Program-made: the position numbers and the translations under genes | Notes under the pieces: generated by a model | Seen by the model: only the letters and a program-made list of their open reading frames with translations | Databases searched by the model: none | Told to the model about the DNA's origin: nothing | IMG/VR virus record: IMGVR_UViG_3300032236_001503 | Span: 1-64,000 of that record | Length of the DNA stretch: 64,000 bases | Source of the DNA: a virus | Strand: one strand, 5' to 3' | Shown here: in pieces, positions 1,271-19,206 of the stretch | Layout of the letters: each line of letters opens with the position of its first letter | How positions within the stretch are numbered: position 1 is the first letter of the stretch

Positions 1271-4200
1271 CTATAATTGATAGGTTTCTGTTGGTACATA
1301 ATACCAAGAGTTAGCATTACCCAATCCTAGTTGACCGTAGTTGTTCATACCACACATATATACTCTACCTTCTTGTGTTATTATTTGTAAGAATATTTGA
1401 TTTGAATAACCAACAATAGCAATACTTTGAGCATTTTGTTTAGGTAATTTTACTTGTGTTAATGTTGTTACATAAGGCTGTTCACTATCGAATGCCAAAC
1501 CACCCCAACCATTATATCCACATGTGAATACTCTTCCATCATTTGTTAATAGAGCAAATGCACCATCTGCTGCTGTGAAATCTTTAACCAATCCACTTGA
1601 CCAAGACCAATTTGGTACGGCTGCAACACCAGTTCTATATGTTGGATATACTGGATTGTGCATTGGAACAGGTGTTGGGTGAGCAGCCCCATCTGTTGTT
1701 CCGATACCTAATTCACCCCATGTATTTCGCCCCCAACTCCATAATTGACCATAACCATCTAATGCGTAACATGCGGTATGATCGCCTATTAAACTAAATG
1801 TTTCGAATTTTACAATATTACTAAGAGAAGTGATTTTTGTTGCATAATTTCTATTTGTTGTATCACCCAATCCTAATGCACCAATTCCATTATATCCAGT
1901 TGACCATAATGTTCCATCGTTACATAAGAAATATGTTGCACCAGTTCCTGATACGCCACCATTACTACCATAAACTGCTTTAACATTACCAATTGGTAAA
2001 TTCACACCACTCATTACGTTGCCGAATGTTGGTATATAAGAACCATATCCTGATGATCCTCTACCTAATTCACCATAATTAGTCCATCCACAACCCTGAA
2101 CTTGTCCATTATTAAATAGTATAAATAAACTTTGACTATTACTTGAGTCACCAGTATTTAATATTTGTTTTATTCCACTACTATTGGTCAATGATATCGG
2201 TATTGGTGTTGGGTGTGCAGAACCATCTGTTGAACCTATTCCAAGTTGTCCATAGCCATTATAACCCCATGTCCAAATTGTACCATCTGCTGTCATCGCA
2301 ATACATGTTATGTATGCTGCCTGATCTTCAGATTCATTTACTGCGAATTTAACAACCGCACGTTTTGGATTAATATTACCTTCTTGTCCACCGAAGTAAA
2401 CTTTATTCATGAATGTTTCATGTTCAGTGCTACCGTTTCCAAGATTTCCGTAATTGTTATAACCACTTGCCCATAAAACACCATTTGAATCTAATACATA
2501 TAAAGATAATCCTGCTTGCCAATATTCAACAGGTCTTCCATATGGAGTTGCCGAATCTGTTGGTGTTACTGATACTGGTGTGTATGAGTATATATCAGCA
2601 TAATATCCCATTGGAATGGTTCCATAATATGATCTACCTGCGCTAAACATTCTACCATCCCAATATAAAACAGCAGAAGTTTGTCCACCTCTTCCATACT
2701 TGTTTGGTAATGCCGAGTAATCAGCTAAAGCATATGCTATTGCACCAGATCCACTACCACCACTAATAGTTACATTGGGGTGTTGTAAATAACCTTTACC
2801 AGCGTTTGTTACGGTTATACTTGTAACAACTCCACCTGCAATATTCGCTACAGCAGTTGCTTGAATATTATTACCAATGATATCAGTTGGTGCATCTATT
2901 GTAACACTTGGTGGTGTTACATAACCACTTCCACCATTTCCCACGATGATATTTCTAACTGAACCGTTTACAACGGCTCTACTAACATTTGTAAGATCAC
3001 CTAATACATTAACGCTACCACTAATAACTACATTGTTAGTATAGATATTACCTGTTGTACTTAAATTATTAACATATGTAAAATTTGGTTGCGTTGCGGT
3101 AATATTTGAACCTAAAATAAAGGTATTAGTTTGATTATTTGTATTGTTACTAACACCACCTAAAATTGCTGAACAATTTCCGGATGCGATATTACTACTA
3201 CCACCAGCAACGGTTGACCAAGATCCAGATGCTGTATTGATAGCACCACCAGCAACGGTTGAATATATTCCCGAAGCAGTATTACTATTACCACCAGCAA
3301 CGGTTGAAATATTGCCATTAGCGATATTACCTGCTCCACCACCAACTGTTGATTCATATCCAGCTTGATTGTTACCACCACCAGCTATAGTTGATGCACG
3401 ACCTGATGCAGTATTACAAATACCACCGCCAACAGAAGAATATACACCGGATGCGGTATTGTTTAATCCACCATCAATATGTGAATAACATGCTGAAATT
3501 AAGTTACCAGCACCACCAGTGATTGATGAATCAACACCAGCCGAAGTGATTAAATTATTTTGTCCACCAAAAACCGATGAGAAGTTAGCACACGCACAAT
3601 TTCCACCATATACATATCTCAATGATGAAAGAGATGTGCCAGTTGTAAAGAAACTACCTGATGCAAGAACACCAGTTAAGTTTGAACCATTACCAATGTA
3701 ATTTCCATAAACGTAACCGCATGAACTTATATTATTAACATATGTAAAATTAGGTTGTCCTGCTGTGATATTTGAACCTAAAATAAATGTATTTGCTTGA
3801 TTATTTGTATTGTTGGCTGAACCAGCAGCTACGAATGAAACCAATCCATTTGTTGTATTACATGAACCACCAGCTACTGTGGAATATCTACCGGAAGCCG
3901 TGTTGCATGAACCACCGATTACAGTGGATGCAAAGTTACAAGCGTTATTAAATTGTCCACCTAAAACAGAAGCCGCAGTGCATGTTGCATTATTACAATA
4001 GCCTCCTCCGATATTTGAATATGCACCAGATGTTGTATTATATTGACCACCAGTAATGTTAGAATAACAATTACAAACATTGTTGCATCTTCCACCAACA
4101 ACACTTGAGAACGTACATGCTACTTGATTTGATGAACCACCTGTGATGCTGGAGCAATTAGCCGTTACGTTATTTGAAATACCACCAGCTACAACTGAAT

Positions 4201-5458
4201 AGTTTCCAGTTGCGGTATTATTATAACCACCAGTTATAACAGTATAACATGCTGATGCTGTGTTGTTTTTACCACCAACGACACTTGAGTAATTAGCAGA
4301 AGCGGTATTATTAACACCACCTAAAATATTCGCATAACCTGATATATTTGTATTGTTATTGGTTCCAATCGATATTGATTTATTGCCACTAATTTGACCA
4401 TTTACGGTAAGCGTTGCATTTGGAGTTGATGTATTAATACCAACATTTGCGTTTTGATCTATTGCAAATGCTGTGATTGATGGTGTATTACCAAATACTG
4501 AACTAATGTAATATTTGTTTTGTAATTCATCATAAGATGTAATGAAACCAGACATTGCGTATGTTCCGGTTCCATATTCACCAATAAAAAGAACAGGAGC
4601 TAAACCATCATTTGCAATACCATTTGTTAAATAAACATAACTTGTGGATAATACAGGTGTAAAAATATTACTTTGTGCGCTAATATTTCCTGCAACGGTT
4701 AAATTCGCATTTGGCTTTGATGTACCAATACCAACATAACCACTTGTTGAGCCATCAACATAAAAAGCAGTATTAGAATTAACAGTCGCTACGATAACTG
4801 GATACGGGCCAGTTTGCGTTAAATTTAATGTTGTTCTGGTTCCATTATTAATTATATCTAAACCTTGACTAGAGAGAACCGCTGTTGTATTTGTTATAAT
4901 TCCACCAGAAACATAGAAATTACCAGTTACACGCAAATTACCATTTGCATTGATGTCTCCAACGACATCCAATGGATAAACTGGGTGTGTATTACCAATA
5001 CCCACTTTACCACCCATGAATGTTGCTACTGGTACACCTGATGGTGATTGTACATATATACCATTGCCACCTGAAATCATACCAGTAACAGTTTGGTATC
5101 CTATTACCGTAGAATTACCACTTAATCCTAAATTTCCTGCTGCAAAAATATTACCATTTGTTACTAAATTGTTGATATTTAATGCACCATTTATATACTG
5201 ATCACCAGTTGAACTTATATTACCAACAACCGTTAATGCTGCATTTGGATGACCTGTACCAATACCAACATTACCACCCATGAATACGGCAGAATATGCA
5301 CTTGTGGGTGGAACTACAGCACTTAACCCACCCGATAAAACGAAATCACCATAAAAGGGAGCGTCAAAACTGGCTATCGGATCATGAGATGAATCAGGAT
5401 TTGTAGCTGATGCATAAGTGTGGTGATTCTGTCTATGATATTTGGAATTCGGTCTCAT
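1271..5458 (-). CDS. Giant tail fibre: YadA-head-like repeats plus C-terminal RCC1-type propeller
   Basis: 1395 residues. From about residue 60 there are several VGIGT-(S/T)-xPNAxLTVxGxIS modules, a common phage fibre motif. Residues about 360-790 are dozens of hairpin repeats of the form GGxxNxASGxxSxVxGG, the YadA-head-like fold of trimeric adhesins. Residues about 830-905 hold two GGSGYxxPPxVTI glycine-rich units. From about residue 915 to the end come repeats with the WGYNGYGQLG signature and alternating DGxxWxxGxN segments, which is the RCC1 beta-propeller pattern. Likely role: a trimeric fibre carrying three propellers as a host-contact tip (inference). The gene is co-directional with the other fibre and baseplate genes. 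RCC1 repeats are best known from eukaryotic GEFs, but here no GEF function is implied. Confidence 0.8.
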   Translation of the reverse strand: MRPNSKYHRQNHHTYASATNPDSSHDPIASFDAPFYGDFVLSGGLSAVVPPTSAYSAVFMGGNVGIGTGHPNAALTVVGNISSTGDQYINGALNINNLVTNGNIFAAGNLGLSGNSTVIGYQTVTGMISGGNGIYVQSPSGVPVATFMGGKVGIGNTHPVYPLDVVGDINANGNLRVTGNFYVSGGIITNTTAVLSSQGLDIINNGTRTTLNLTQTGPYPVIVATVNSNTAFYVDGSTSGYVGIGTSKPNANLTVAGNISAQSNIFTPVLSTSYVYLTNGIANDGLAPVLFIGEYGTGTYAMSGFITSYDELQNKYYISSVFGNTPSITAFAIDQNANVGINTSTPNATLTVNGQISGNKSISIGTNNNTNISGYANILGGVNNTASANYSSVVGGKNNTASACYTVITGGYNNTATGNYSVVAGGISNNVTANCSSITGGSSNQVACTFSSVVGGRCNNVCNCYSNITGGQYNTTSGAYSNIGGGYCNNATCTAASVLGGQFNNACNFASTVIGGSCNTASGRYSTVAGGSCNTTNGLVSFVAAGSANNTNNQANTFILGSNITAGQPNFTYVNNISSCGYVYGNYIGNGSNLTGVLASGSFFTTGTSLSSLRYVYGGNCACANFSSVFGGQNNLITSAGVDSSITGGAGNLISACYSHIDGGLNNTASGVYSSVGGGICNTASGRASTIAGGGNNQAGYESTVGGGAGNIANGNISTVAGGNSNTASGIYSTVAGGAINTASGSWSTVAGGSSNIASGNCSAILGGVSNNTNNQTNTFILGSNITATQPNFTYVNNLSTTGNIYTNNVVISGSVNVLGDLTNVSRAVVNGSVRNIIVGNGGSGYVTPPSVTIDAPTDIIGNNIQATAVANIAGGVVTSITVTNAGKGYLQHPNVTISGGSGSGAIAYALADYSALPNKYGRGGQTSAVLYWDGRMFSAGRSYYGTIPMGYYADIYSYTPVSVTPTDSATPYGRPVEYWQAGLSLYVLDSNGVLWASGYNNYGNLGNGSTEHETFMNKVYFGGQEGNINPKRAVVKFAVNESEDQAAYITCIAMTADGTIWTWGYNGYGQLGIGSTDGSAHPTPIPISLTNSSGIKQILNTGDSSNSQSLFILFNNGQVQGCGWTNYGELGRGSSGYGSYIPTFGNVMSGVNLPIGNVKAVYGSNGGVSGTGATYFLCNDGTLWSTGYNGIGALGLGDTTNRNYATKITSLSNIVKFETFSLIGDHTACYALDGYGQLWSWGRNTWGELGIGTTDGAAHPTPVPMHNPVYPTYRTGVAAVPNWSWSSGLVKDFTAADGAFALLTNDGRVFTCGYNGWGGLAFDSEQPYVTTLTQVKLPKQNAQSIAIVGYSNQIFLQIITQEGRVYMCGMNNYGQLGLGNANSWYYVPTETYQL

Positions 5459-5476: not shown

Positions 5477-8400
5477 TTAAGAACTTGCATTAGGGTAAAA
5501 TGTATCATTACAACAATCTGATGATGCTTCACCCCATGTTTTTGTTAACTGTTGACTTGATGAAAATGAATATGAACTTGGGAAATTACTCTGTAATTCG
5601 GCATATGTTATTGGATTAATGTTACATATACGAATTACTGGTAATGTGAGATTGTAACACGACATGCCCTTCCAAGACCAACAGAATGGATTACTGCAAC
5701 CAGTATTAATACCAGAAAGGTTTCTGTTATCGGTAACTGTTAAATAACCTGCCAAGTAATTTAAAGCATTATATATTTTACCCAATTCTCTATTGAGAAC
5801 CTGTGGGATATTAAATTCATTTACGCCAACTTGAACATTTTCATTTTCTATATCATCAGCAAAAACTGGTCTACTTGAAACTAAAATTGGTGTTTTTGAA
5901 AAGTATTGAATTTGACCATAAGGTGTTGATTCCGTTACAATAACGAATTTTGAATTCATTGTATTTCTAAATGTTTTAATATTCTGAATCAATCGGGTAA
6001 ATGCACGATTGTAAACATTATCCATAGTAAATTCATCTCTTGATATTAGTATTTGATCCTTTGTCCAATATTGGTAAGGTAATCCTTCACCAACCTTAAA
6101 TAAGGTTACAATATCCTGACATTTTATAATACTATTTGATGTCGAAAATACTAGAGATTCACTATTTGAATATTTAGCGGAAGTAAAATTCAAAAATTCT
6201 ACACTTGGTATTTTATCAACATATGATATAAACGTTCCAGTTAATGTAAATTTGATTATTTCATTACTATATAAAACATACATGAAATTTCCATTTTTAT
6301 CAAAGATGATCTTAATTGGTTTTGCTTTAAGATTTATTCCATTTTGATCGGTTAATTGGAAACTGGTGATTAAATCACCCATAGTATCAAAAACATAAAT
6401 CTTATTACTGATTGTTAAAATATATGGAAATTCTGTCGTTGGGTGTACAGCAAAACATTCTGGATTATTTGTATAAATTGGTTTAATTGAAGTTCCCACA
6501 TTTATATCAAATTCTTCGTTATAATATGTATAAATCCAGTTTAAATCTTCAGTATAATGTTTTAAACAATGGTTTTGATAGTCTAAAACATAAACATTAT
6601 CATTTAAATAAATTAATTCTGTGGGAGAATTAAATTTATTTGGATCTTGTCTTCCACCATAGTTTCCAACCACTAATTGAATATTAATTTCGTTTATGTA
6701 ATCAAAACTTAAATTGAGTTTATATATTTTATTGTAATATTGATCTAAGACATATAAATTTTGACTCGGTTCATCGTAATCGATTGAAACCGGATTCACT
6801 AATAATTGATATACTTCATTTATATTATCAAAAAATATTTCCGTTGGATTTGCACCAGTTGTAAATGCTCTCGCACTCAAACCATCAAGTACAAATGTGT
6901 AGTAATCAGTTTGAACTAAATCTTTAATATTTGAAAATGATGGAGATACTGCATTTTGTGCAGAACTTACGGTTGCGTAATTTGGATGAACGTAATCACC
7001 TGATAAGAAATCCTGAGTATGCCACTGAATACCTCTGCCTACATTATTTTGACTAGTACCAAGCCACCCATAGAATAATGTTGGTGAATCAGTATTAATA
7101 GTTTGGGTATTGTATATTAAATATTCCAAATTATCATAGAGACGACTCATTGCGGTATTAAATATATCCGCATCAGCATATTCATTTGGTTGAATATCAA
7201 CTTGATCCACTGTCCAAGGAAGAGTTAAATATTCCTCGGTTAATAATCTTATTTTCGATTGATCATAAGTGGGCCATGTATTATAAACTGTAATCGCATG
7301 TGTATTAGGTAATTGAAAACTTAATGATGAACCATTGTTATAATTAACTTGATATGATAACGTGTATGTTCCCTCTGATTGATAAGAATGTTGTGTTATA
7401 TCATTGACTAAATGATAAGCTGATAAGCCATCTCCAAAATATATGTTATAAGAAGTTATTGCTACATTTGCTTCTGGTGTATTTTGTAGATAAGGTGTTT
7501 TGAATTGTATAAAAATATTATCGCCTGTTGTTGCGTAATAAGATGAAATATAAATTTCTGGCTTTACTGCTGTTGCATAAACAACAAATGATTCTGTTGC
7601 TGTTGTAAGTTTCTGTTCAATCACATTCCATGAATCATATGATCCAGTATAGCTAGTAGCTAAATTGTATGTAGTTGATGGGATGTAAGCTGAGAGTGTA
7701 GCCGATGCATTTAATAATAAATGATTTTGAACATAGTTATCAACCGTTAATGGTTGGGAACCATCTCCAATATTTAAGATAAACAAATCATAAAGACCAT
7801 TTACCATTGGCACATTTATCTGACTAACCCATCCACCCGAAAGCGACGATAATGAATATGTTACATATGAATTAGGGTTTTGTAATGCTCGTACAGGTGT
7901 ATTTGCTGTATTAGGAACAGTGAGTGTTTGTAAAACACCAACGAATATATTATTATCAAGATCGATTGATGTTACTGGTGTAAATTGTAAACCTAGTTGT
8001 GTTACTGTATTGTAATCAAAAACAACAGCTGTATCTACAGTTGAAAACTGTAATTGTAAAGTATCATAACCAACCAATTTAGGTGATTGATTAAATGCTG
8101 ATAATCCATTTTTTGAATATGTTAAATTATTAAAACTATTAGTGTTTGATGCAATTGAATAATTTCCTAGATATAAACCAGATGTAGAATTGTTTGAAGT
8201 TAACCCGATATAATTTAAAGAGTTAACTGATCTACGAGGGAAAAAATTATTGAATGCCGTTAGGTAAACAGTTAATCCTCTATTTGATGATAGATCGTTT
8301 ACATAAGGTAAATTAATTAAGTGATTATTGGTATTAAAAGTGGAAAATAATGATACCGATGGGTCATTTAAATTTGCATAACCGTATTGATATAACCCAC

Positions 8401-11400
8401 CTTTATTTGCTGAAACATAAAAATTCTGTGAATTTGTATTATTGTGAGCATAAGCAGTTGGTGCTTGTGATACTGTAAAATTATTATTATTAACAATAGT
8501 CAGATATCCACTATTTCCTTGATGCCAAGTATATGGTGGATATATTAAAAAGTTAGTTGGTGCAAAGAATTGTGCAGTTGGTAATGTGTATATAGTTTGT
8601 GTTGAAACTAAATTATGAGGAATTGTCCACCCAGCAATTGTTGCACTCAATGCACATAATGATACATTTGTTGATGTAACACTAGGTGAGGAGATTACAT
8701 AATTAAAGGTAGAAATACTACTGAGATTTGCTGATGTTGAACTCAGTGAATAATAATGCCCTGTATTATCCGTTATTACCCATTGAATAACAGGAGCAAC
8801 TAAATTGGATACGATTTCACCAGTTGAAAATTTAAAACTATTAAAATCTGTATTTGGTCTAGATAGTACATTATTCGCAGATGTATTTGCGATAAATGGT
8901 GAATTTTGAGGAGAATAAATTATATATTCTAATTGATAGAATTGATTTATATCATACCAAGAAATTTCCTGATTAACCACATTAGTTACAACACCATTGG
9001 TGACTGTTATTTGAACTGGAACCAATACGGGTCTAGGACCTAACCAAGGATATAATTGTATTATTGGTTGTGATTGGAAATATATGTTTACAACTTCTCC
9101 TGTAAAGTTATATGCTGTTCTAAAATATGTATTAAAAATGTTATCTGATGGATAATCTAAAACACTAATATTACTATTTCCTATGGTATATGGATTATTG
9201 TAATGCGATATCGCTGATACCGATAAATTGTGAATATTAAATGAGTTTAGAGATGAACTTAATTGTACATTTAAAACTATAGAGCTTAGATAATCAGAAA
9301 AATTAGTACTACCGTTACTATATGTATTTCCAATAAATGGTGTATTATTATAAAAAGCAGTAATTGGTAAATTAGTTGTTTTGTTATCGTAACTCCAAAC
9401 CCAATACATTGGAATGCCTGTTGGGATTTGATATGAATTTTGGTTGTATGGAACCGTTGCAGTTACGGTATATGATACAGTTTTTCCCAAAATTTGCGTA
9501 TTTGCGACACCAACATTAAATTTATTATGTGAGAGGATATTGAATAAATTTGGATTAGATGAAAGAGTTGCAGTTTGATTATATTTCTGAGAGGAAAGAG
9601 TTACGTTTACGGTGTTAGGACCGTATCCCGAAACCGAAACCGTCCAACTGTTACTATTAAATGGAATTGGTTGATTTATTGGAATTGCTGATAAAAATGT
9701 TCCATCTGGATTAACTGATTGTAAAGTGATATTACAATTTGGATTAACATTATTGGAATTAAAATTCCAACTTATTAAAGAATTACCTTGTAATGATGAA
9801 TTGGTATCACTTAATGTTAAAAGATTTTTTGATGGGAAATCTGGGTAAGATGTCAAGAATGAAGAATCTACTGTTATATTATCTGCTTCTTCATTTATTA
9901 CCTTTAATGATATAGGATAACCGAGTGCTGCCTTATATACATTATTTTGTCCTGATGCAAAATGTATAAATGTTGCATTATTTGATTCGGAAATATAATT
10001 AAAGATGCTACTACTTAAACGGGTTCTTAATGTTATATTAAAGGGTCCGTACGATGATAATGGATAAACTAAAAGGAATTGTGATCCTTCTGATGTTGGG
10101 ACAAACGGTGAATTTATAATATCATAAACCTGATCTAGATTAGATCCATAATAACAAAATATCTCATCTAATACATATGGTGTATTTTTTGGAAAATCAA
10201 TTACATTTAAAGAGATGAAATCATTTGGAGCATATGTTGGTAAGTCAACATTTAATATACCAAAATCACTAGCTAAACATGATGAAAGATAAACAAATTC
10301 GGTTTGTCCATATTGAGTAGCACCGGATGCGGTGTATTGTTTGGTTACACCACTTGATAAGTTAAATCTTAAACTATAAGTGTCACTTGGATTTGGGAAT
10401 GCATTATTGGTAAATGATGTTTTAAATGAATAATAATGCGGTGAATATGGAATAGTCCAAACCATAGTATCGAATGGTGTTGACCCATCACTAATCGGTA
10501 CGTTTAATGGAATTAAACCAGAATTACTTGTTACAAATGTAGTTGAGCCAACACTAGAAAGTGTATTGGATAAACTATTAAAATAGTAAGGAGATTCCGC
10601 TATATATTTTAATTTTAACGATTGACTTGCTGCGTTGAAATCAGGTTTACAATAAGGATATCTATTTCCGAAATTATCTTTATATGTAGCATTATTATAT
10701 CTGAAACTCGTAGGGGAATTACATGATAATGATATTGATAAAATACAATTGCTGAAATCTTGAAGTGGTGCGCTTGGGTTTATCGAACTCTGTGTTAATT
10801 GTAAAGTCTGATAATTTATTGAGTTTAAATTAAAATTATTAATGAATGATGAACGAAAATCATACCATAAAGTAGGTACTTCTTCTGGAAAGAACTGACC
10901 AAGTGGAATCATCTGATTCCATAGGTAGTTATAAGTTGTAATATTGTATTTTATATTAATTGAATTTGGTACAATATAAATGTTATTATCTTCCAATTGA
11001 ACATTGAAACTAAAAGGATTAAAATTAGGAGTATATGTTAAAACATTGTTTATTACGTTTTTTGATGCTGATAAACTATAAACCAAATTAACTGGTATAG
11101 AATTTCCTCTTATAGGATTAAAATATGGTTGATTGAATTTATAATTGGTATGTTTAACATAAGAATCGTGATCAACAACATTACTACCCACGAATAAAAC
11201 ATTAGTTGAAAGTAATACGGTTGAAGTTTGTAAATTAAACGTTCCGTTATTATTAGCTGAAAGTGAAATTGGTTTTAAAAATAATCTTTGTGGATACAAT
11301 AAATAAGCAGCATCAAATAGATTATTTGCAGTATTAGTTTGATTAATTGATGATAATACTGGATTTTGTGATGAATTATTATCAAATGAACTAATTGAAA

Positions 11401-11752
11401 GTATGAAATTGTTAAAAATATCTCCTATATTATAGGTTCTTAATGTTGATGGTTTCCAAGTAAAAGTGTTATTACTTGTTTTTGATGTGATTTGATAGGT
11501 ATCAGATTCTGGATCAACATAAGAATTTGCGTTTCCAAAATTAAAATCAATTTGATTATAAACATCAGTCACGTTGTTTATATCGTTGATCGGATTATCT
11601 ACAAATCTGAATAAGTTCAAATACTTCATTGAACTCAATCCTGCAACTTTACTGTTAAAGTATGTTGGTGTTATAAGATATTCTTCCATGGGCCAACTGC
11701 CGCTCATTGCTACAGTGTAATAACCATTTGAAGCTATGTTATAAGATGACAT
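5477..11752 (-). CDS. Giant virion protein with PKD-like and NHL-propeller segments
   Basis: 2091 residues, no close family recognised. Most of the protein is Ser/Asn/Tyr-rich beta-strand material suggesting strings of Ig-like domains. A PKD-like domain (IYFGDG followed by an SYQSEGTYTLSYQV strand) sits near residues 1430-1480. Residues about 1600-1850 contain NHL/propeller-like blades such as NLYVLDQYYNKIYKLNL and NVYVLDYQNHCLKHY. Three copies of a helical segment, (E/D)(E/Y/F)xxxxxxNxAxxRLxxN-like, occur near residues 1510, 1890 and 1975. The last 70 residues are cysteine-rich (GCSNPFCWSWKGMSC, then SDCCND). The position between the sedolisin-bearing protein and the RCC1 fibre suggests a baseplate-peripheral or fibre-connector structural protein. 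That role is inference from context. Confidence 0.6.
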   Translation of the reverse strand: MSSYNIASNGYYTVAMSGSWPMEEYLITPTYFNSKVAGLSSMKYLNLFRFVDNPINDINNVTDVYNQIDFNFGNANSYVDPESDTYQITSKTSNNTFTWKPSTLRTYNIGDIFNNFILSISSFDNNSSQNPVLSSINQTNTANNLFDAAYLLYPQRLFLKPISLSANNNGTFNLQTSTVLLSTNVLFVGSNVVDHDSYVKHTNYKFNQPYFNPIRGNSIPVNLVYSLSASKNVINNVLTYTPNFNPFSFNVQLEDNNIYIVPNSINIKYNITTYNYLWNQMIPLGQFFPEEVPTLWYDFRSSFINNFNLNSINYQTLQLTQSSINPSAPLQDFSNCILSISLSCNSPTSFRYNNATYKDNFGNRYPYCKPDFNAASQSLKLKYIAESPYYFNSLSNTLSSVGSTTFVTSNSGLIPLNVPISDGSTPFDTMVWTIPYSPHYYSFKTSFTNNAFPNPSDTYSLRFNLSSGVTKQYTASGATQYGQTEFVYLSSCLASDFGILNVDLPTYAPNDFISLNVIDFPKNTPYVLDEIFCYYGSNLDQVYDIINSPFVPTSEGSQFLLVYPLSSYGPFNITLRTRLSSSIFNYISESNNATFIHFASGQNNVYKAALGYPISLKVINEEADNITVDSSFLTSYPDFPSKNLLTLSDTNSSLQGNSLISWNFNSNNVNPNCNITLQSVNPDGTFLSAIPINQPIPFNSNSWTVSVSGYGPNTVNVTLSSQKYNQTATLSSNPNLFNILSHNKFNVGVANTQILGKTVSYTVTATVPYNQNSYQIPTGIPMYWVWSYDNKTTNLPITAFYNNTPFIGNTYSNGSTNFSDYLSSIVLNVQLSSSLNSFNIHNLSVSAISHYNNPYTIGNSNISVLDYPSDNIFNTYFRTAYNFTGEVVNIYFQSQPIIQLYPWLGPRPVLVPVQITVTNGVVTNVVNQEISWYDINQFYQLEYIIYSPQNSPFIANTSANNVLSRPNTDFNSFKFSTGEIVSNLVAPVIQWVITDNTGHYYSLSSTSANLSSISTFNYVISSPSVTSTNVSLCALSATIAGWTIPHNLVSTQTIYTLPTAQFFAPTNFLIYPPYTWHQGNSGYLTIVNNNNFTVSQAPTAYAHNNTNSQNFYVSANKGGLYQYGYANLNDPSVSLFSTFNTNNHLINLPYVNDLSSNRGLTVYLTAFNNFFPRRSVNSLNYIGLTSNNSTSGLYLGNYSIASNTNSFNNLTYSKNGLSAFNQSPKLVGYDTLQLQFSTVDTAVVFDYNTVTQLGLQFTPVTSIDLDNNIFVGVLQTLTVPNTANTPVRALQNPNSYVTYSLSSLSGGWVSQINVPMVNGLYDLFILNIGDGSQPLTVDNYVQNHLLLNASATLSAYIPSTTYNLATSYTGSYDSWNVIEQKLTTATESFVVYATAVKPEIYISSYYATTGDNIFIQFKTPYLQNTPEANVAITSYNIYFGDGLSAYHLVNDITQHSYQSEGTYTLSYQVNYNNGSSLSFQLPNTHAITVYNTWPTYDQSKIRLLTEEYLTLPWTVDQVDIQPNEYADADIFNTAMSRLYDNLEYLIYNTQTINTDSPTLFYGWLGTSQNNVGRGIQWHTQDFLSGDYVHPNYATVSSAQNAVSPSFSNIKDLVQTDYYTFVLDGLSARAFTTGANPTEIFFDNINEVYQLLVNPVSIDYDEPSQNLYVLDQYYNKIYKLNLSFDYINEINIQLVVGNYGGRQDPNKFNSPTELIYLNDNVYVLDYQNHCLKHYTEDLNWIYTYYNEEFDINVGTSIKPIYTNNPECFAVHPTTEFPYILTISNKIYVFDTMGDLITSFQLTDQNGINLKAKPIKIIFDKNGNFMYVLYSNEIIKFTLTGTFISYVDKIPSVEFLNFTSAKYSNSESLVFSTSNSIIKCQDIVTLFKVGEGLPYQYWTKDQILISRDEFTMDNVYNRAFTRLIQNIKTFRNTMNSKFVIVTESTPYGQIQYFSKTPILVSSRPVFADDIENENVQVGVNEFNIPQVLNRELGKIYNALNYLAGYLTVTDNRNLSGINTGCSNPFCWSWKGMSCYNLTLPVIRICNINPITYAELQSNFPSSYSFSSSQQLTKTWGEASSDCCNDTFYPNASS

Positions 11753-11787: not shown

Positions 11788-14700
11788 TTAAATCAATCCA
11801 AATCCTTTATAAAGTTGATAGGTGAAGATAAATTCCATCATACCGTCACTATTATTCCAATTAAGGTAAGAATCTGGGTATGCTCCAGAAATTTGATTAG
11901 TTAAGGCTAACAGGTACTCGTCTTTATTAATGTTTGTAAATTGATTATTCCAATCTATAGTATTTTCCACGTATACTTCATTTGTAGCAGGTACAAATTC
12001 ATAAAATTCATATAATTGTGTCCAATCATAGGAGTTATTTTTTATACCAAGATAATAGGCAAGTTCATCCAAACTATAAGATGATACACCAGCAGTTGAT
12101 AAATTTGTAACCTTATCATCATAAAGTGGAACCTGTCCGGTTGGGATTAAGCGATATGAATTTAGAGATTTTGCTTTTAATACAACAGGGGTTCCAGCGG
12201 AAACCATATATGTATTTGTATCTAATAAATCACCCCTATTAAAATTATCATATTTACTAGGTGATGAGAAATTAAAGGAATCATTTAATACGCTACCAAA
12301 TAATCTACTTTGATTTATACTTAAAAGATCCATAGATCTTTGTATATCAATTGGATATTGTAATCTAAAATCATCAGTGTTTAAATCAACCGATTGAGCT
12401 AAATCATATAGATTATCAACATTACAAGTGTCTAAATCCATAATATTAGAAGTATAATTTGCAATTTTTTCGTATGATTTTACGCCTAAGTCGTCATGGG
12501 ACGATAATCCAAATATTGATGTGAAGAAATTAAAGAGATTTGTACTTTCTTGTAATGTTTGTTGGAAGGCAACAGATTTAAGTTGTCCTGACATATCAAA
12601 ATTTTCATTTATCTTATAAAGATCATAATAATTTTGAGGGTAAAAGGATATATAATTTGGTGCAGTCGTTCCAGATATATTTTTATATATGGTTCCTGTT
12701 GTATCACTTATATATGATGGATCATTATTATAAGCACTGAGGTAGTATTTGTTCGTCCATCTAAAGCCAGACCAATCCCCGTTTGCTTGCGCTGATTTAC
12801 TCCAAGGATTGTAATCATACATTGTTGCAGTATTAGCAGCACTAATATATGGAACTATACCCTTTGGATTTATATAAAAATTATCAATTATACTTTTAGA
12901 ATTTGAATCAATAACATATATTTTATTTTCTATGGAATTAATAACATATATTCTACCCAATAAATCACAACTTATACCTTCTAATGCTGTTTCATCTGCA
13001 TTTTTATTTGCATCGAACCATTGCGGTACGTTATTAGCGTAGTTGTCGCTTGATATAGCGAAGGTGACGGTGTTACCATTAGTAGGATTTATACTGCCAA
13101 CATAATGATAGCTATAAGTGAACCAAATATTCTGATTAATGTCGATTGTTATATCATTTATTGAATTGAAAGGACCGAATGATGTTAATAAAGCACCATT
13201 TGTGTTAATATATTGTAGATAACTTGAGTCAGTACCGGATGTTATGTGATTTGTTGATACCCATAAATTGTTATTGTTATCGCAAACTATTTCATAGGGT
13301 GAACTATAGTGATATCGAACTGATGTCAATAAATTACCATATGTATCATAATTAACTAACCATCCACTGAAAGGATTTGAATAAGTTACCCAAACATTAT
13401 TATTTAAATCTGTTTCAATGCATGTTGGTTGAATTGGATAACTGTCATCTGAATCATATGATAAATTATTTGATTTTACATTGGATTGATCTATCCATGA
13501 TTTTAAGAAATCTGGATTTTGTATTGGTGCAGCATCAAAGGTAACTGTTGTTATATAATTTCCTAAATTATCGAATTTAAATACATATGGTGTATCGAAA
13601 CATGCAACCCAAACATCTTGATTGCTATCTAAAGCAATCGACAATGGTGTTAATTGATTTGGAATTAAGAAACTTAATTGGGCAGTTGTATACTGAAGTA
13701 GCGTTAATAAACTGTTTAAGTTTACATTAATTAATATATCACCAACTGAATTTATTCTATATAAACTATTGAGTTCACTATCAGCTACCCATGCATGATA
13801 TGTTGGTTCCGGTAGTGCCGCAATCGCATTAATACCATGAATACCCGAAACTGCCATGACATCATTTTTGAATTCAACATTAAACGGTTGTATTGTTGGT
13901 ACGTCAAAAGCATTAACATGAACCTTATCTAAATAACCCAAAGAGACCGCAGAAAATGCTGGATTTGAATAATATTGAGCAGTTGCTAACATTCCTGCAT
14001 TTGGATTTGATATCCATAATATTGGATTTACATATTTTGTTGAAAGTGATGGAACTGGAAAATAACCACTACCTAATATTTCACAATCAACAGTACTTGT
14101 GTAATTTACAAAAGATCCTTTATAATAACCTCCAACTTTAAATCCATTAGAATCTTGAAATTTAAATTGTAAATTATCTGGTGTATAGGTAAAATTCAAT
14201 GGCGTACCATTTAAATCAAAAGCAGATAAACTAAATGGAATATTATTTGAACTGAATAGATTATAATATGTTGTATTATCAAAGGGAATATAGTGAATGA
14301 ATTCATTTTCATTAGCTATAACGGTTCCGTTTCCATCTATGAGATCATCCGCATAATAAGTTGGATTAACTTTCATGTTAACCAACATTGGATTATCCTG
14401 CCCAATAAATCTAAGTTTTGAGAATGGATTTATTCCGTTTTGCGTTATATTTAAATAATCTGGTTCCCTGAATGTAAAAATGTGTGGTAATGTAACCGAA
14501 GCAAGACTGTTTGAAAAACTTGGTGTTTTATTATCCTCATTAAATGAACCATTAAATGATCTTAATCCTGATGTTCTTAATGTTGCAATAATTGTACTGT
14601 AAGGATTTTCATTGAAATATAAATCCGTATTATACAAATCATCAACAAAATAAAATTCAGCAGTTCCGGAAACACCTACAACGTTTCCACTTGGATTTAA

Positions 14701-16791
14701 TTTACCAACTTCATCAATTGCAATTGGAGAATCTACTGTTTGAATGAAATCTATTTGATTACCACTTAAATCTAAGAATCTCCATTGTGGTCTTAAGAAA
14801 GACCAATTATTTTCAGGTTCTTGATAGCGATAAGATTTTGAAAATTGAGCACCCAAATCGATAAAATGAGGTTCGGTGCTTGATGATGTTATGTTTATTT
14901 TAAAAGGATATCTATTTAAGTGACCAGCAAATGTTGGTGGTGGTATTAAATCAAAATATAAAGATTCATTTAAATATAACTGTACGGGTATTACATTTGA
15001 ATCAGTAAAATATTCACCACTACTAGTATAAACTGTTAACGTTACATTATAGTTATTTGGTAATGTATATAAATGTTTTGGATTAGGTTCTCTGCTGCTA
15101 GAATAATCACCAAAATTCCAATAATATGTATTAATTCCTAGTGATGATAATTGAACGTCCGTTGTGAATTGAAAATTTGTAGCGTTTGCAAAACCACTAT
15201 TTAAATTTGTATTAAATAAACTTACTTTTACATTAGTATTAGCTATGGCTGTGTTGATGATAGTATAATCATCACCAACTACCTCATAAGCAGTCATTGA
15301 AACTGTATAATTGCCAGATGAATTATATATGTGATTTCCGGATATTTGATTTGTTAAGGTTCCATCACCTAAATCCCAATAAAAAAGATTATAATTTTGT
15401 GCAGTATAACTATCTGGAACGTATGTAAAATCAGTTGTTAAGGTATAACCGAAATTTGGGGGATTTAATACTATACTAGCTGGTGCTATAGTTGTACCAA
15501 TAGATAATGTACTATTTGTTGGTACTATAGTTGTAGTTTGTGTTGGTGAAGATGTAGCTTGATTTGATATAGTTAATAAATTAGGAACTTTTGGTGATCC
15601 AACACCTGTTACTAAATCATAACCCTTTGCTGATGCATAACCATTGCCACCATCAACGATATCATTAAAGTAATATGATGAATTTTGATTATATAAACTA
15701 TAAATTTGTTGATTTGCAAAAGATGAACTTTTGGTATATAACCCAGCACTGCATCTTCTAGCCATTATAGCAGCCCATTGTGGTGCGGCTGCACTGGTTC
15801 CAGCTAATGCTTGATAGTATGATATATTTGTATATGGATTTGTCCAAACTATCCATGCAGCTGCACCGGAATTATATGATACATCAGGAACACCTCTACC
15901 TGATAATGCAACATTATTTACGGTTAAATTTGCTTGATAAGATGGTACTGGATTTACTGATGCTACTGCTTCACCACCACCACTTCCACTCCATGAAACT
16001 TCACGGTACGGACCGGGTGAACCAGAATAATACAAATTATTTCCACCTAATAAAACAGTTCCACCTACACCCAATACATTTGGTGAAGATGCTGGGTAAT
16101 TTACTTGAGCACCAGAATCACCAGCCGCTGCAATAAAAATTGTATTTCTTGTGTTAAAGATATTATCAAATCCACTTTGATAAAAATACGATTGGTCAGG
16201 ACCGCAAGTAAAACTCATTGATACAACATCTGCGCTCAATGTGTTTACAGCGAAATTAACTAATGCTGGTAAATCAGCTACACTATTTTGGTAATCGGTA
16301 ATTAAAACCAAATTAGCAGATGGAGCCATCGCATAAGCATATTGTATGTCTAAACTTGTTTCTTGACTCCATCCAAAAGCATCCGCTGAAAGTGCTGGAT
16401 TATTCTTTAAACTTGTCCAATTAGTAGCACCAAGTGGTGCATATACTTGTATTGTCTTTTGGGGTAATCCCATAGCAGTACAAAAGAAATTAAGATCACT
16501 TTGTGCTGTTGGACTACCATAGAAATCTATGATAGCTATAGTTTTACCGGAACCGCTATTACTAAGAGTTGTTAATTGGTCAAATCCATAATAGCTTATA
16601 AAATTTTGAGGGATAAGAACACCATATCCACTTGGTGCTGATATCTCTTCTTGATTTAAATCAGATATACCAATACCATTTGAAAAGGAATCACCATTTC
16701 TGATGCTACCAGTTTGTCCATTTAAATCCCCATCGTTTTCAAGGTATTTCCAACTTAACAGGGGTGTAGCTTTTAATGCAGATAAATCCAT
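11788..16791 (-). CDS. Sedolisin (peptidase S53) fused to PKD and NHL/Vgb-like propeller, large virion protein
   Basis: 1667 residues from the ATG at 16791; an in-frame TTG two codons upstream is a weaker start. Residues about 55-405 match sedolisin. E144 and D148 lie four apart in WSQETSLDIQYAYAMAP, the oxyanion Asp D225 is in AAAGDSGAQ, and Ser S333 is in LAGTSAAAPQWAAIM. The calcium-site pair D377-I378 and D392 is also present (NDIVDGGNGY, GYDLVTGVGSP). Spacing agrees with the family E-D-D-S set, so an active serine-carboxyl peptidase is expected. The usual long pro-domain is absent; only about 55 residues precede the catalytic core. Two PKD domains follow (FYWDLGDG and YYWNFGDYSS), then propeller blades near residues 1000-1320 (DVWVACFDTPYVFKFDNLGN). 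The final 250 residues are unassigned and may anchor it to the baseplate. It lies immediately downstream of gp6, where T4 has gp7, but similarity to gp7 was not established. Confidence 0.8.
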   Translation of the reverse strand: MDLSALKATPLLSWKYLENDGDLNGQTGSIRNGDSFSNGIGISDLNQEEISAPSGYGVLIPQNFISYYGFDQLTTLSNSGSGKTIAIIDFYGSPTAQSDLNFFCTAMGLPQKTIQVYAPLGATNWTSLKNNPALSADAFGWSQETSLDIQYAYAMAPSANLVLITDYQNSVADLPALVNFAVNTLSADVVSMSFTCGPDQSYFYQSGFDNIFNTRNTIFIAAAGDSGAQVNYPASSPNVLGVGGTVLLGGNNLYYSGSPGPYREVSWSGSGGGEAVASVNPVPSYQANLTVNNVALSGRGVPDVSYNSGAAAWIVWTNPYTNISYYQALAGTSAAAPQWAAIMARRCSAGLYTKSSSFANQQIYSLYNQNSSYYFNDIVDGGNGYASAKGYDLVTGVGSPKVPNLLTISNQATSSPTQTTTIVPTNSTLSIGTTIAPASIVLNPPNFGYTLTTDFTYVPDSYTAQNYNLFYWDLGDGTLTNQISGNHIYNSSGNYTVSMTAYEVVGDDYTIINTAIANTNVKVSLFNTNLNSGFANATNFQFTTDVQLSSLGINTYYWNFGDYSSSREPNPKHLYTLPNNYNVTLTVYTSSGEYFTDSNVIPVQLYLNESLYFDLIPPPTFAGHLNRYPFKINITSSSTEPHFIDLGAQFSKSYRYQEPENNWSFLRPQWRFLDLSGNQIDFIQTVDSPIAIDEVGKLNPSGNVVGVSGTAEFYFVDDLYNTDLYFNENPYSTIIATLRTSGLRSFNGSFNEDNKTPSFSNSLASVTLPHIFTFREPDYLNITQNGINPFSKLRFIGQDNPMLVNMKVNPTYYADDLIDGNGTVIANENEFIHYIPFDNTTYYNLFSSNNIPFSLSAFDLNGTPLNFTYTPDNLQFKFQDSNGFKVGGYYKGSFVNYTSTVDCEILGSGYFPVPSLSTKYVNPILWISNPNAGMLATAQYYSNPAFSAVSLGYLDKVHVNAFDVPTIQPFNVEFKNDVMAVSGIHGINAIAALPEPTYHAWVADSELNSLYRINSVGDILINVNLNSLLTLLQYTTAQLSFLIPNQLTPLSIALDSNQDVWVACFDTPYVFKFDNLGNYITTVTFDAAPIQNPDFLKSWIDQSNVKSNNLSYDSDDSYPIQPTCIETDLNNNVWVTYSNPFSGWLVNYDTYGNLLTSVRYHYSSPYEIVCDNNNNLWVSTNHITSGTDSSYLQYINTNGALLTSFGPFNSINDITIDINQNIWFTYSYHYVGSINPTNGNTVTFAISSDNYANNVPQWFDANKNADETALEGISCDLLGRIYVINSIENKIYVIDSNSKSIIDNFYINPKGIVPYISAANTATMYDYNPWSKSAQANGDWSGFRWTNKYYLSAYNNDPSYISDTTGTIYKNISGTTAPNYISFYPQNYYDLYKINENFDMSGQLKSVAFQQTLQESTNLFNFFTSIFGLSSHDDLGVKSYEKIANYTSNIMDLDTCNVDNLYDLAQSVDLNTDDFRLQYPIDIQRSMDLLSINQSRLFGSVLNDSFNFSSPSKYDNFNRGDLLDTNTYMVSAGTPVVLKAKSLNSYRLIPTGQVPLYDDKVTNLSTAGVSSYSLDELAYYLGIKNNSYDWTQLYEFYEFVPATNEVYVENTIDWNNQFTNINKDEYLLALTNQISGAYPDSYLNWNNSDGMMEFIFTYQLYKGFGLI

Positions 16792-16803
16792 ATACAAAAA
16801 CTA

Positions 16804-18603
16804 TTAAAAATCCGCAGCCTTGATCGAACCAGTTGTTTCTTGTATAGTAATTCTTGATGCTATATTTGAAACATTATTAAATACTGGATATTGGAAGTAA
16901 TCTAAATTTACGTTTTGAGTATAAACTTTAGCATAGTTATCAGGATAAACATAATCCCAGAATAATAAAGAAACACCTTCTACATATGTGTCTAAATCAG
17001 CACGATAAGTTTGTACTCTTTGAACTCCATCAACACTTAATATACTTGTTGATAATTGATAGATATCAATTGTTTGACCAAGAGTATTTTTTGATCTATC
17101 AAATGTATTAGTAAAGATAGTTTGAATATCGTTTAAAATGGCGGTATCGGCTCTTCTTGTGTTTGGGTTTTTTGTTATGACTAAACCTGAGTTACCAAGA
17201 TCACTTGGTGATGGTTTTATATATGGACTTGGTGTATAAAAATCAATATAAATGTATACAGGGTCCATTGGTACGATTTCAGCCGTAATAGTTTTATGTG
17301 AATTAATTCCATTTAATATAATTTCCTTTTGTGTGGAATTTAAATAATTCTGTAAAGGACTACTTGGTACTGAATATAAATAAAGATTATTAAAGTTACA
17401 AGCATTTGAAAAATTAACTTGATTAATTAAAATTCTATTTTCCAATTGTGGTGTATTTAATCCTATATCATACAAATAAGCAATATGACCTGCCAAGTAA
17501 TCATCATTACTAACAAGCTGAATATCGGTTAATAGATTGGAATAGTTTTGTTTAATAAATGTTACATAATCATTGGTTGTAACTAATCTATATTGTGATC
17601 TAAAGGCATTGGGTGAATTTTTACGAATTGAATCAACTGATTCTTCAGCAGTATAAACAGTTGAAGGATAGTCGTTGTTCAATGACACCTGACTTAATTG
17701 ATTAATTGTTAAATAATTTTGATTAATTGAAATGTCTTTTATAATTTGATTAAAAGTTACAGAATTATAAGGGACAAGTGATGAATTGTTTAAACCATTA
17801 GGTCCAATTCCCTGTGAATTTTGATCAATTTGTAAATAAAATATTTGAACCTGATCACCTGTACTTAATCCCTTACCATTAACATTATCACCAAATGTTA
17901 TTTCATAATTTTTATTTTGATTAAATCTTACCTCGTAAACCAAATCATTAGAACCATATAAAAATAAATCTGTTGCTCTTGTCCACTCTTGCCAAACTCC
18001 AGTTGCTGCTGGCTTAACATATACGAATATATTAAAGTGATCTAAAAATACATTTGTTGGCAATGTGATATAGGCTACTTCATTATCAATACCTAAAGCA
18101 GTATAAAGTGGATTTTCTTGAAACACTCCTTGATATGCCAAATACGTATCAGCTATATTAGAAATAACTTCCTCTTTATTTGTAAACTTGGTAAAGTTTA
18201 TATCTTGATTTACTGAATAAATTGTTCCACCAACGTTTAAATAACTATATCTTGGTATTGTATAATTTCCTAATGTGATTGCAGGAGAAACAGTCATGGT
18301 AAATGGAACATTTGCTCCCAATCTACCAATTGGATTATAATCCAAAAGTTTAACAATACGATTCATGTTTTCATAAAGCTGTGCTTCAGTGAACATGCTT
18401 TCTGATGATGTTTTATTAAGATAATATAATAGTGTACTAAAGGAATAACCAACAACGTCTATCAATGCTGATAAGTTAGAACCCTGATAGTTTTGATCAG
18501 TAAAAACTTTACCCTGATTTAATCTACTGATGATTAAATCACGAATACTTGTGCCATCGAAGGCAACATATGAACTTTGGTCGAAAACAGGATTGGTAGC
18601 CAT
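16804..18603 (-). CDS. 6: Baseplate wedge protein gp6 (baseplate J-like)
   Basis: 599 residues, close to T4 gp6 (about 660). The N-terminus reads SYVAFDGTSIRDLIISRLN, then NYQGSNLSALIDVVGYSFST and the MFTEAQLYENMNRIVKLL stretch. This is the typical opening of T4-family gp6, in which helices set up the wedge dimer. The middle carries the baseplate-J type beta domain (YEVRFNQNKNYEITFGDNVN). gp6 forms the continuous inner ring of the baseplate with gp7, gp25 and gp53. It sits 15 bases downstream of gp25 on the same strand, a linkage that supports both calls. Known from the family: its conformational change during contraction. Not visible here: gp53. Confidence 0.88.
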   Translation of the reverse strand: MATNPVFDQSSYVAFDGTSIRDLIISRLNQGKVFTDQNYQGSNLSALIDVVGYSFSTLLYYLNKTSSESMFTEAQLYENMNRIVKLLDYNPIGRLGANVPFTMTVSPAITLGNYTIPRYSYLNVGGTIYSVNQDINFTKFTNKEEVISNIADTYLAYQGVFQENPLYTALGIDNEVAYITLPTNVFLDHFNIFVYVKPAATGVWQEWTRATDLFLYGSNDLVYEVRFNQNKNYEITFGDNVNGKGLSTGDQVQIFYLQIDQNSQGIGPNGLNNSSLVPYNSVTFNQIIKDISINQNYLTINQLSQVSLNNDYPSTVYTAEESVDSIRKNSPNAFRSQYRLVTTNDYVTFIKQNYSNLLTDIQLVSNDDYLAGHIAYLYDIGLNTPQLENRILINQVNFSNACNFNNLYLYSVPSSPLQNYLNSTQKEIILNGINSHKTITAEIVPMDPVYIYIDFYTPSPYIKPSPSDLGNSGLVITKNPNTRRADTAILNDIQTIFTNTFDRSKNTLGQTIDIYQLSTSILSVDGVQRVQTYRADLDTYVEGVSLLFWDYVYPDNYAKVYTQNVNLDYFQYPVFNNVSNIASRITIQETTGSIKAADF

Positions 18604-18618: not shown

Positions 18619-19206
18619 TTATATTAAGATTTGTCCTCCCAATTGAGCAAAAATACTTAAGTTATCTTGTACGCTTAACGGAAGAATATCATATACTAAT
18701 GAAACAGCATAACCAGCACCTAGCGAATTGATATCCGATACCGACTGAAGCGTTAATTGTGTTCCATTTAAATTTATAACTGGTGTTGATGTTGGATTAG
18801 GTAAAACATACACACTTACAACACTCACTCTAGGTTCAAATTGAGTTATGGCATTATTAATATCGTTACCTATTGCATTTGCACCAAGAACCGAAACTGG
18901 TTCAAAAAGGTATTTTAATAAAGAACACCCAAAAGTTGGATTTAAGACCTTTTGACCCGGTATTGTGGTGAATAAATTTCTTAAAGAGTTTTTAATTGCT
19001 TGAATATCTGAATCGGATGCAATATCTCTTGATTCTACTGGATTTAAACCTATACCAACTGATTGATTTGGGGTTTCACTAGTAGTTAAATCTAAATGCA
19101 AATCGCTATAAATGGGTGTAGTTACCTGAACCTGTTTACTCACGGAAATACCAGATGAATTAACTTGTTTTGGTTGAATTAAATTATTTAAATCGATTAT
19201 TGCCAT
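18619..19206 (-). CDS. 25: Baseplate wedge gp25 (lysozyme-like fold family)
   Basis: 195 residues. The conserved gp25 core is at residues 67-126: DIQAIKNSLRNLFTTIPGQK, then LNPTFGCSLLKYLFEP and the diagnostic EPR (124-126) in TQFEPRVSVVSVYV. T4 gp25 is 132 residues; this one has an extra N-terminal arm of about 60 residues rich in Ser/Thr. gp25 family proteins are structural baseplate components that nucleate sheath assembly; no catalytic activity is implied here. It is followed directly by gp6. The start overlaps the opposite-strand small gene's upstream region, giving a divergent arrangement with 31 bases between the two ATGs. Confidence 0.88.
   Translation of the reverse strand: MAIIDLNNLIQPKQVNSSGISVSKQVQVTTPIYSDLHLDLTTSETPNQSVGIGLNPVESRDIASDSDIQAIKNSLRNLFTTIPGQKVLNPTFGCSLLKYLFEPVSVLGANAIGNDINNAITQFEPRVSVVSVYVLPNPTSTPVINLNGTQLTLQSVSDINSLGAGYAVSLVYDILPLSVQDNLSIFAQLGGQILI

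Follow-up and report, generated by a model that had tools for sequence, protein, structure and literature searches.

A gene in the baseplate cluster of an uncultivated T4-like phage raises two questions, namely, whether it encodes a genuine sedolisin-type (S53) protease and what such an enzyme would do at the N-terminus of a phage structural protein. We analyzed a window of 64,000 nucleotides (positions 1 to 64,000) from the 163,237-base IMG/VR virus record IMGVR_UViG_3300032236_001503, which carries T4-type gp23 and gp20 genes. The gene lies at 11788..16791 on the minus strand, as do all window features given here. Its open reading frame (11788-16797) runs without internal stop over 1669 codons from a TTG, or 1667 from the ATG at 16791. 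A preliminary description made from the window's letters had given the 1667-residue size and the coordinates correctly, and the strand is added here. It had also placed the gene directly downstream of gp6, and the upstream neighbor is indeed a gp6-like baseplate wedge subunit (16804..18603; PHROG 219, E=2.4e-38), itself preceded by a gp25-like wedge subunit (18619..19206; PHROG 261, E=1.8e-26; Pfam GPW_gp25, 2.7e-15). Downstream of the fused gene are encoded a 2,091-aa PKD/NHL protein (5477-11752), whose C-terminal ~700 residues form a separate ORF in some relatives (L108, L109), and, two genes away, a protein of 1,395 aa that contains an RCC1-type propeller (1271-5458; Pfam RCC1-like, E=1.4e-48).

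A predicted S53 protease domain behind gp6

A phmmer search against the PDB matched residues 81-419 of the protein, numbered from the TTG, to kumamolisin-As (4ne7; E=7.8e-16), and the Peptidase_S8 profile scored above its cut-off (35.6 versus 21.8 bits). Together with AF2 and Foldseek, this match places the catalytic domain at residues 59-405 (15577..16617), and in the tree the window domain falls inside S53. Aligned to kumamolisin, the predicted catalytic residues are Glu144 (16360..16362; kumamolisin E78) and Asp148 (16348..16350; D82), with the oxyanion Asp225 (16117..16119; D164) and the nucleophile Ser333 (15793..15795), whose surroundings, AGTSAAAP, correspond to GTSAVAP around S278; the set stands in S53 order and includes the GTSxxxP motif. 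The predicted C-terminal Ca2+ site retains its aspartate ligands, Asp377 (15661..15663), aligned to the HDI site of kumamolisin, and Asp392 (15616..15618), where GYDLVTG aligns to GWDPCTG. The kumamolisin Gly334 position at this site is Ala388 in the window domain, and we take it to be a main-chain-type ligand. The preliminary description had named these same six residues in calling the domain a sedolisin; the family assignment holds, and every residue number proved exact in the alignment. Across 40 aligned S53 domains, Glu144 is invariant and the other five residues are conserved at 95-97%, while the window domain keeps 53 of the 60 columns that are conserved at ≥90%. Near-invariant residues are changed at W151Y, H153Y, and S277A; the residues lost are non-catalytic.

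AlphaFold prediction, which had been proposed as a check on the domain, pointed the same way. The AF2 model built from the 40-row alignment reached a pTM of 0.81, with pLDDT of 88-96 in the blocks that hold the catalytic residues. A Foldseek search of the PDB with this model returned kumamolisin-As and sedolisin first (kumamolisin-As, E 2.1e-21), the best matches all being S53 enzymes followed by subtilisins, and the TM-score against the best kumamolisin-As chains was 0.79-0.81 by target length. Taken together, these results indicate that residues ~59-405 are an S53/sedolisin-type domain with an apparently intact predicted catalytic set. The domain shares with kumamolisin, kumamolisin-As, and sedolisin (MEROPS S53; PDB 1siu, 1sio, 1ga1) the predicted fold, the Ser-Glu-Asp set, the oxyanion Asp, and the Ca-site aspartates; it differs from them in having no prodomain, in missing the DGEQDG-type loop that follows the oxyanion Asp, and in being fused to a phage structural protein.

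An in-frame insertion into a conserved protein

The remainder of the fused gene (11788..15477) encodes a conserved host protein of ~1,230 residues that comprises PKD domains, a conserved beta domain, an NHL propeller, and a C-terminal region. About 80 contigs of uncultivated T4-like phages have an orthologue, at 28-72% identity, and across this clade the protein is encoded immediately after gp6. The PKD and propeller domains announced in the preliminary description are both there: PKD domain 1 (15223..15453; Pfam PKD_4/PKD, in two stretches) corresponds to the N-terminus of the relative L116, PKD domain 2 (14992..15204; Pfam PKD_4, 4e-16) comes next, and an NHL-type beta-propeller follows (12868..13860), with profile matches to Pizza/PknD/NHL structures and Foldseek matches to NHL.

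L116, from contig G040, is the nearest relative (gp23 97% identical over residues 171-488; host-protein core 72%). Its gene has no S53 domain and begins MASSYIILNPPNFGYTL, matching the window protein from residue ~437. By blastn, the DNA of the two phages is 82.6% identical across gp6 up to and including its stop; the match ends at the next gene's start codon and is regained, at 80%, 1,319 bases further on, around codon five to six of the L116 gene. The 1,319-bp segment (15476..16794) holds a leader, the S53 domain, and a linker, and its third-position G+C, 0.151, is similar to the 0.17 of the flanking structural genes. The S53 segment is thus a clean in-frame insertion of ~1.32 kb that follows at once on the start codon of the host-protein gene. 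The protease had been described earlier as built into the gp6-adjacent protein; the fusion stands, but the domain is an N-terminal add-on absent from the nearest relatives rather than an integral part. In other relatives, the same N-terminal slot holds a LamG domain (L104/L124), a He_PIG Ig-like domain (L106 and others), or an extra PKD (L123, L127), and in some it holds nothing. One gene-7-position orthologue (L192:4312-9075) has a different N-terminal region of ~540 residues, whose only Pfam match is a PKD at its end.

The host protein occupies the gene-7 position of T4, where gp7 likewise sits directly behind gp6 and is similar in size to the conserved part of the host protein. The sequences, however, are unlike, and the host protein adds the propeller, PKD domains, and S53 extension. 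Sequence homology to T4 gp7 was not detected by hhalign (probability 0.5%), the window protein had no PHROG match, and gp7 was not among the 50 best PDB matches, mostly propellers, of a model of the host-protein core (pTM 0.68). Identification of the host protein as a gp7 homologue, unsupported by all three approaches, was thus dropped. Fold searches with the carrier match mainly its propeller or other uncharacterized phage proteins, and its putative place in the baseplate is therefore deduced from gene order.

Recurrence of the module and its cellular relatives

When viral contigs were scanned, neither the window domain by itself nor its two-row alignment with kumamolisin gave any match, and the window domain as query among 38 relatives gave none either. 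Phage relatives surfaced only with an alignment including cellular relatives, and four further contigs were found with an alignment of the window domain and L279, a 418-aa S53 protein of an unrelated large phage; the earlier empty scans thus reflect sensitivity. All four contigs are T4-like and of the same clade as the window (gp23 81-93% and gp6 51-55% identical), and their gene-7-position proteins carry no S53 domain. In G045 and G047, the module is instead N-terminal on a protein of ~1,570 aa (the pair 52% identical over full length), and 40 of 50 clade contigs have a conserved counterpart of its S53-free remainder, the other contigs' copies being without S53. In G046, it heads a protein of 3,337 aa that has long stretches rich in Thr, Pro, and Gln and, on visual reading, parts resembling LamG and a propeller, and in G048 it is N-terminal on a 647/659-aa protein. 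Each genome has one copy. Besides the window, only 4 of the 50 clade contigs tested carry the module, a rarity that marks it as dispensable. The G045 fusion (L311) is repeated identically in L344, a contig from another metagenome, so that this fusion is not an assembly chimera; for the fusion in the window itself, no other independent contig was found. In both L311 (3470-7960) and L313 (3488-7972), the gene immediately preceding the S53 fusion encodes a conserved protein of ~1,495 aa with a stretch that by eye recalls a vWA domain.

The five T4-like phage S53 domains group together at 100/98, and with L279 at 95/89, with no branch flagged as long. In an early tree, the window domain and L279 had paired as two long branches; the grouping holds with the T4-like relatives added. 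Glu144, Asp148, Asp225, Ser333, Asp377, and Asp392 are invariant in 6/6 members of the phage clade, even though identity elsewhere in the domain has fallen to 35-46%. The L311 and L313 domains, 59% identical, give a dN/dS of ~0.24, which at a near-saturated dS of ~1.5 is only roughly indicative of purifying selection. A leader precedes the domain (residues 1-58; 16618..16791) and could be aligned in six phage S53 proteins; its motif is, in the commonest form, PxLxWxY..(D)GxLxGxxGS, all six sharing P10, W14, and G28 (numbered as in the window protein), and it is predicted to be disordered (pLDDT 31-58). A pattern search of 5,273 ORFs found the motif at no protein N-termini other than those of S53 carriers, and a role as a general virion signal was dropped for that reason; the leader of L312 is a looser version that escapes the pattern. 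Behind the domain lies a Ser/Thr/Pro-rich linker (residues 406-437; 15481..15576), recognized by its S/T/P fraction: in the window protein, the fraction is 0.45 over the 60 residues that follow the domain versus 0.23 overall, and in the five fused proteins it ranges over 0.32-0.62 versus 0.21-0.36 for the whole protein, whereas L279 lacks such a stretch. In a crude test, the fused S53 proteins showed neither a signal peptide nor a lipobox. Comparison of these sequences suggests that the S53 domain is a portable module, added to the N-termini of different proteins within one phage clade.

Sedolisins commonly carry an N-terminal prodomain, the family being defined by its catalytic unit, and their proteolytic activity is usually found at acid pH. 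The window protein had no Pfam match to the Pro-kumamolisin (Pro-kuma_activ) domain, in line with the missing prodomain of the preliminary description. The absence is not, however, peculiar to the phage. The closest cellular relatives, S53 proteins of Planctomycetota and Armatimonadota (L196-L223; about 33-39% identity), are likewise without Pro-kuma_activ, and their N-termini are mostly short; the domain is present in the Rhodanobacter and Alicyclobacillus enzymes tested, and the tree splits prodomain-free from prodomain-bearing wings at 100/99. Prodomain absence thus looks inherited rather than the result of a deletion in phage, and the idea of a phage-specific loss was dropped, the trait being common to S53 of the planctomycete/Armatimonadota type. 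The phage domain most likely derives from a prodomain-free S53 lineage. Some of these cellular proteins then carry a PKD-like domain, but they have no phage leader and are not fused to phage proteins, and the phage domains group separately from them. One planctomycete homologue (L225:3346-4437) has Asn at the Asp148, Asp225, and Ser333 positions (ENNN) and is an apparent pseudo-protease.

Three different S53 queries found no S53 protein in 50,697 phage records, and we found nothing on point in the open-access literature on phage S53, tail proteases, or prodomain-free sedolisins; the earlier impression that a fusion of S53 to a baseplate-region protein is undescribed agrees with both searches. 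One pattern-based scan of limited sensitivity gave about 20 IMG/VR contigs with S53 genes, mostly stand-alone and often encoding lipoproteins. The stand-alone phage enzymes L277-L292 belong to the same prodomain-free wing of the tree as the window domain but are mostly 400-550 aa long, mostly bear lipoprotein-type signal peptides, and are unfused to virion proteins. Those with such signal peptides (LxxCG; L277/L278, L281, L283-L288, L290-L292) are possible envelope-displayed proteases, perhaps for receptor shaving. The L286 gene lies shortly downstream of the terminase large subunit and upstream of ssDNA-binding, UvsX, and UvsW-like genes, and the protein adjoining the stand-alone S53 of L279 (L279:2213-3886) has an HELGH sequence resembling a zinc-metallopeptidase motif.

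Proposed function and alternatives

Our best reading, to which we give about an even chance, is a tethered S53 protease displayed on the tail or baseplate that cuts host-surface or extracellular protein; enzymatic activity, display, and substrate are all things we infer. The module would combine a short leader with a prodomain-free S53 domain, usually followed by a tether rich in Ser, Thr, and Pro. As an in-frame insertion just after the start codon, it would give each copy of the host protein one protease on a flexible N-terminal leash and leave the C-terminal part of that protein intact for assembly. The tethered enzyme could then reach outward from the tail or baseplate and cleave protein of the surface layer, outer membrane, or matrix while the phage approaches and adsorbs, much as tail-borne depolymerases do with polysaccharide. 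Since the fused proteins have no signal peptide or lipobox, unlike the stand-alone S53 lipoproteins, virion assembly is their likely route to the outside. We infer that the carriers are virion components from the position next to gp6 and gp25 in the window, the clade-wide conservation of two carriers, and the missing export signal. Moreover, the LamG, Ig-like, and PKD modules found in the same slot are of a kind used for surface contact, an analogy that would support display. A further proposal, which we rate slightly short of even, is that the module is a mobile cassette moving among unrelated structural genes, always to the N-terminus, and equipping the particle with an enzyme that cuts protein; its leader would either take the prodomain's place in folding or latency or serve as an anchor.

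For virion-associated depolymerases and tail lysozyme, the substrates are mainly polysaccharide or peptidoglycan, and the one polypeptide-cleaving case cited, the enzyme of phage PhiNIT1 acting on poly-gamma-glutamate, is not S53 (reviews PMC5380687, PMC3004832). The proposed likeness to these systems is that of a tail-carried enzyme opening a host barrier, and a virion S53 protease would be, by analogy, a new version of this theme with a protein substrate.

Other roles can be envisaged for the domain. It might serve maturation, either cutting itself off its carrier or trimming tail proteins, and be lost or inactive in the mature virion. An N-terminal protease set before a long low-complexity linker fits this picture, the conserved leader could be a processing or inhibitory element, and maturation proteases have precedent in T4-like phages, which use a prohead protease, a different enzyme, for this purpose (gp21 is annotated in P-HM1). 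We nevertheless consider a maturation role unlikely: the carriers differ completely between sister phages, which is unexpected for a dedicated function of this kind, and 46 of the 50 clade contigs tested manage without the module. A use of the S53 fold as adhesin or spacer, comparable to the LamG and Ig-like domains of the slot, would be in keeping with the carbohydrate- and protein-binding folds that relatives carry there and with the changes at the near-invariant W151, H153, and S277. Such a binding role seems rather improbable, as all six catalytic and calcium positions are kept in every phage-clade member, where some losses would be expected in a pseudo-protease, and the changed residues are not catalytic.

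Improbable to much the same degree is an intracellular or post-lysis role, for example on debris or on the receptors of competing phages, with the fusion partner as a mere carrier. The missing signal peptide would suit it, and other phages encode stand-alone S53 lipoproteins that are likely located on the host envelope; the module has, however, been joined repeatedly to large proteins, of which two are conserved clade-wide, a pattern more in line with use on the particle, and prodomain-bearing sedolisins are typically secreted, acid-active enzymes. Finally, the window's own fusion is so far a single observation, as would be the case for an assembly chimera or dead passenger DNA. We regard this explanation as very improbable, given that the insertion is in frame at both ends with third-position composition close to that of the structural genes, that the window domain groups with the domains of the four other clade contigs, and that one sister fusion was recovered from two metagenomes.

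A portable protease of the tail-displayed type proposed here is not known from any cultured phage. If the preferred reading of a tethered, tail-displayed protease is true, protein barriers on or around the host would be under selection as a target in these uncultivated T4-like phages, and the module would provide a natural example of an enzyme cassette swapped between carrier proteins. Furthermore, a prodomain-free sedolisin would open the folding and latency of such enzymes to direct study.
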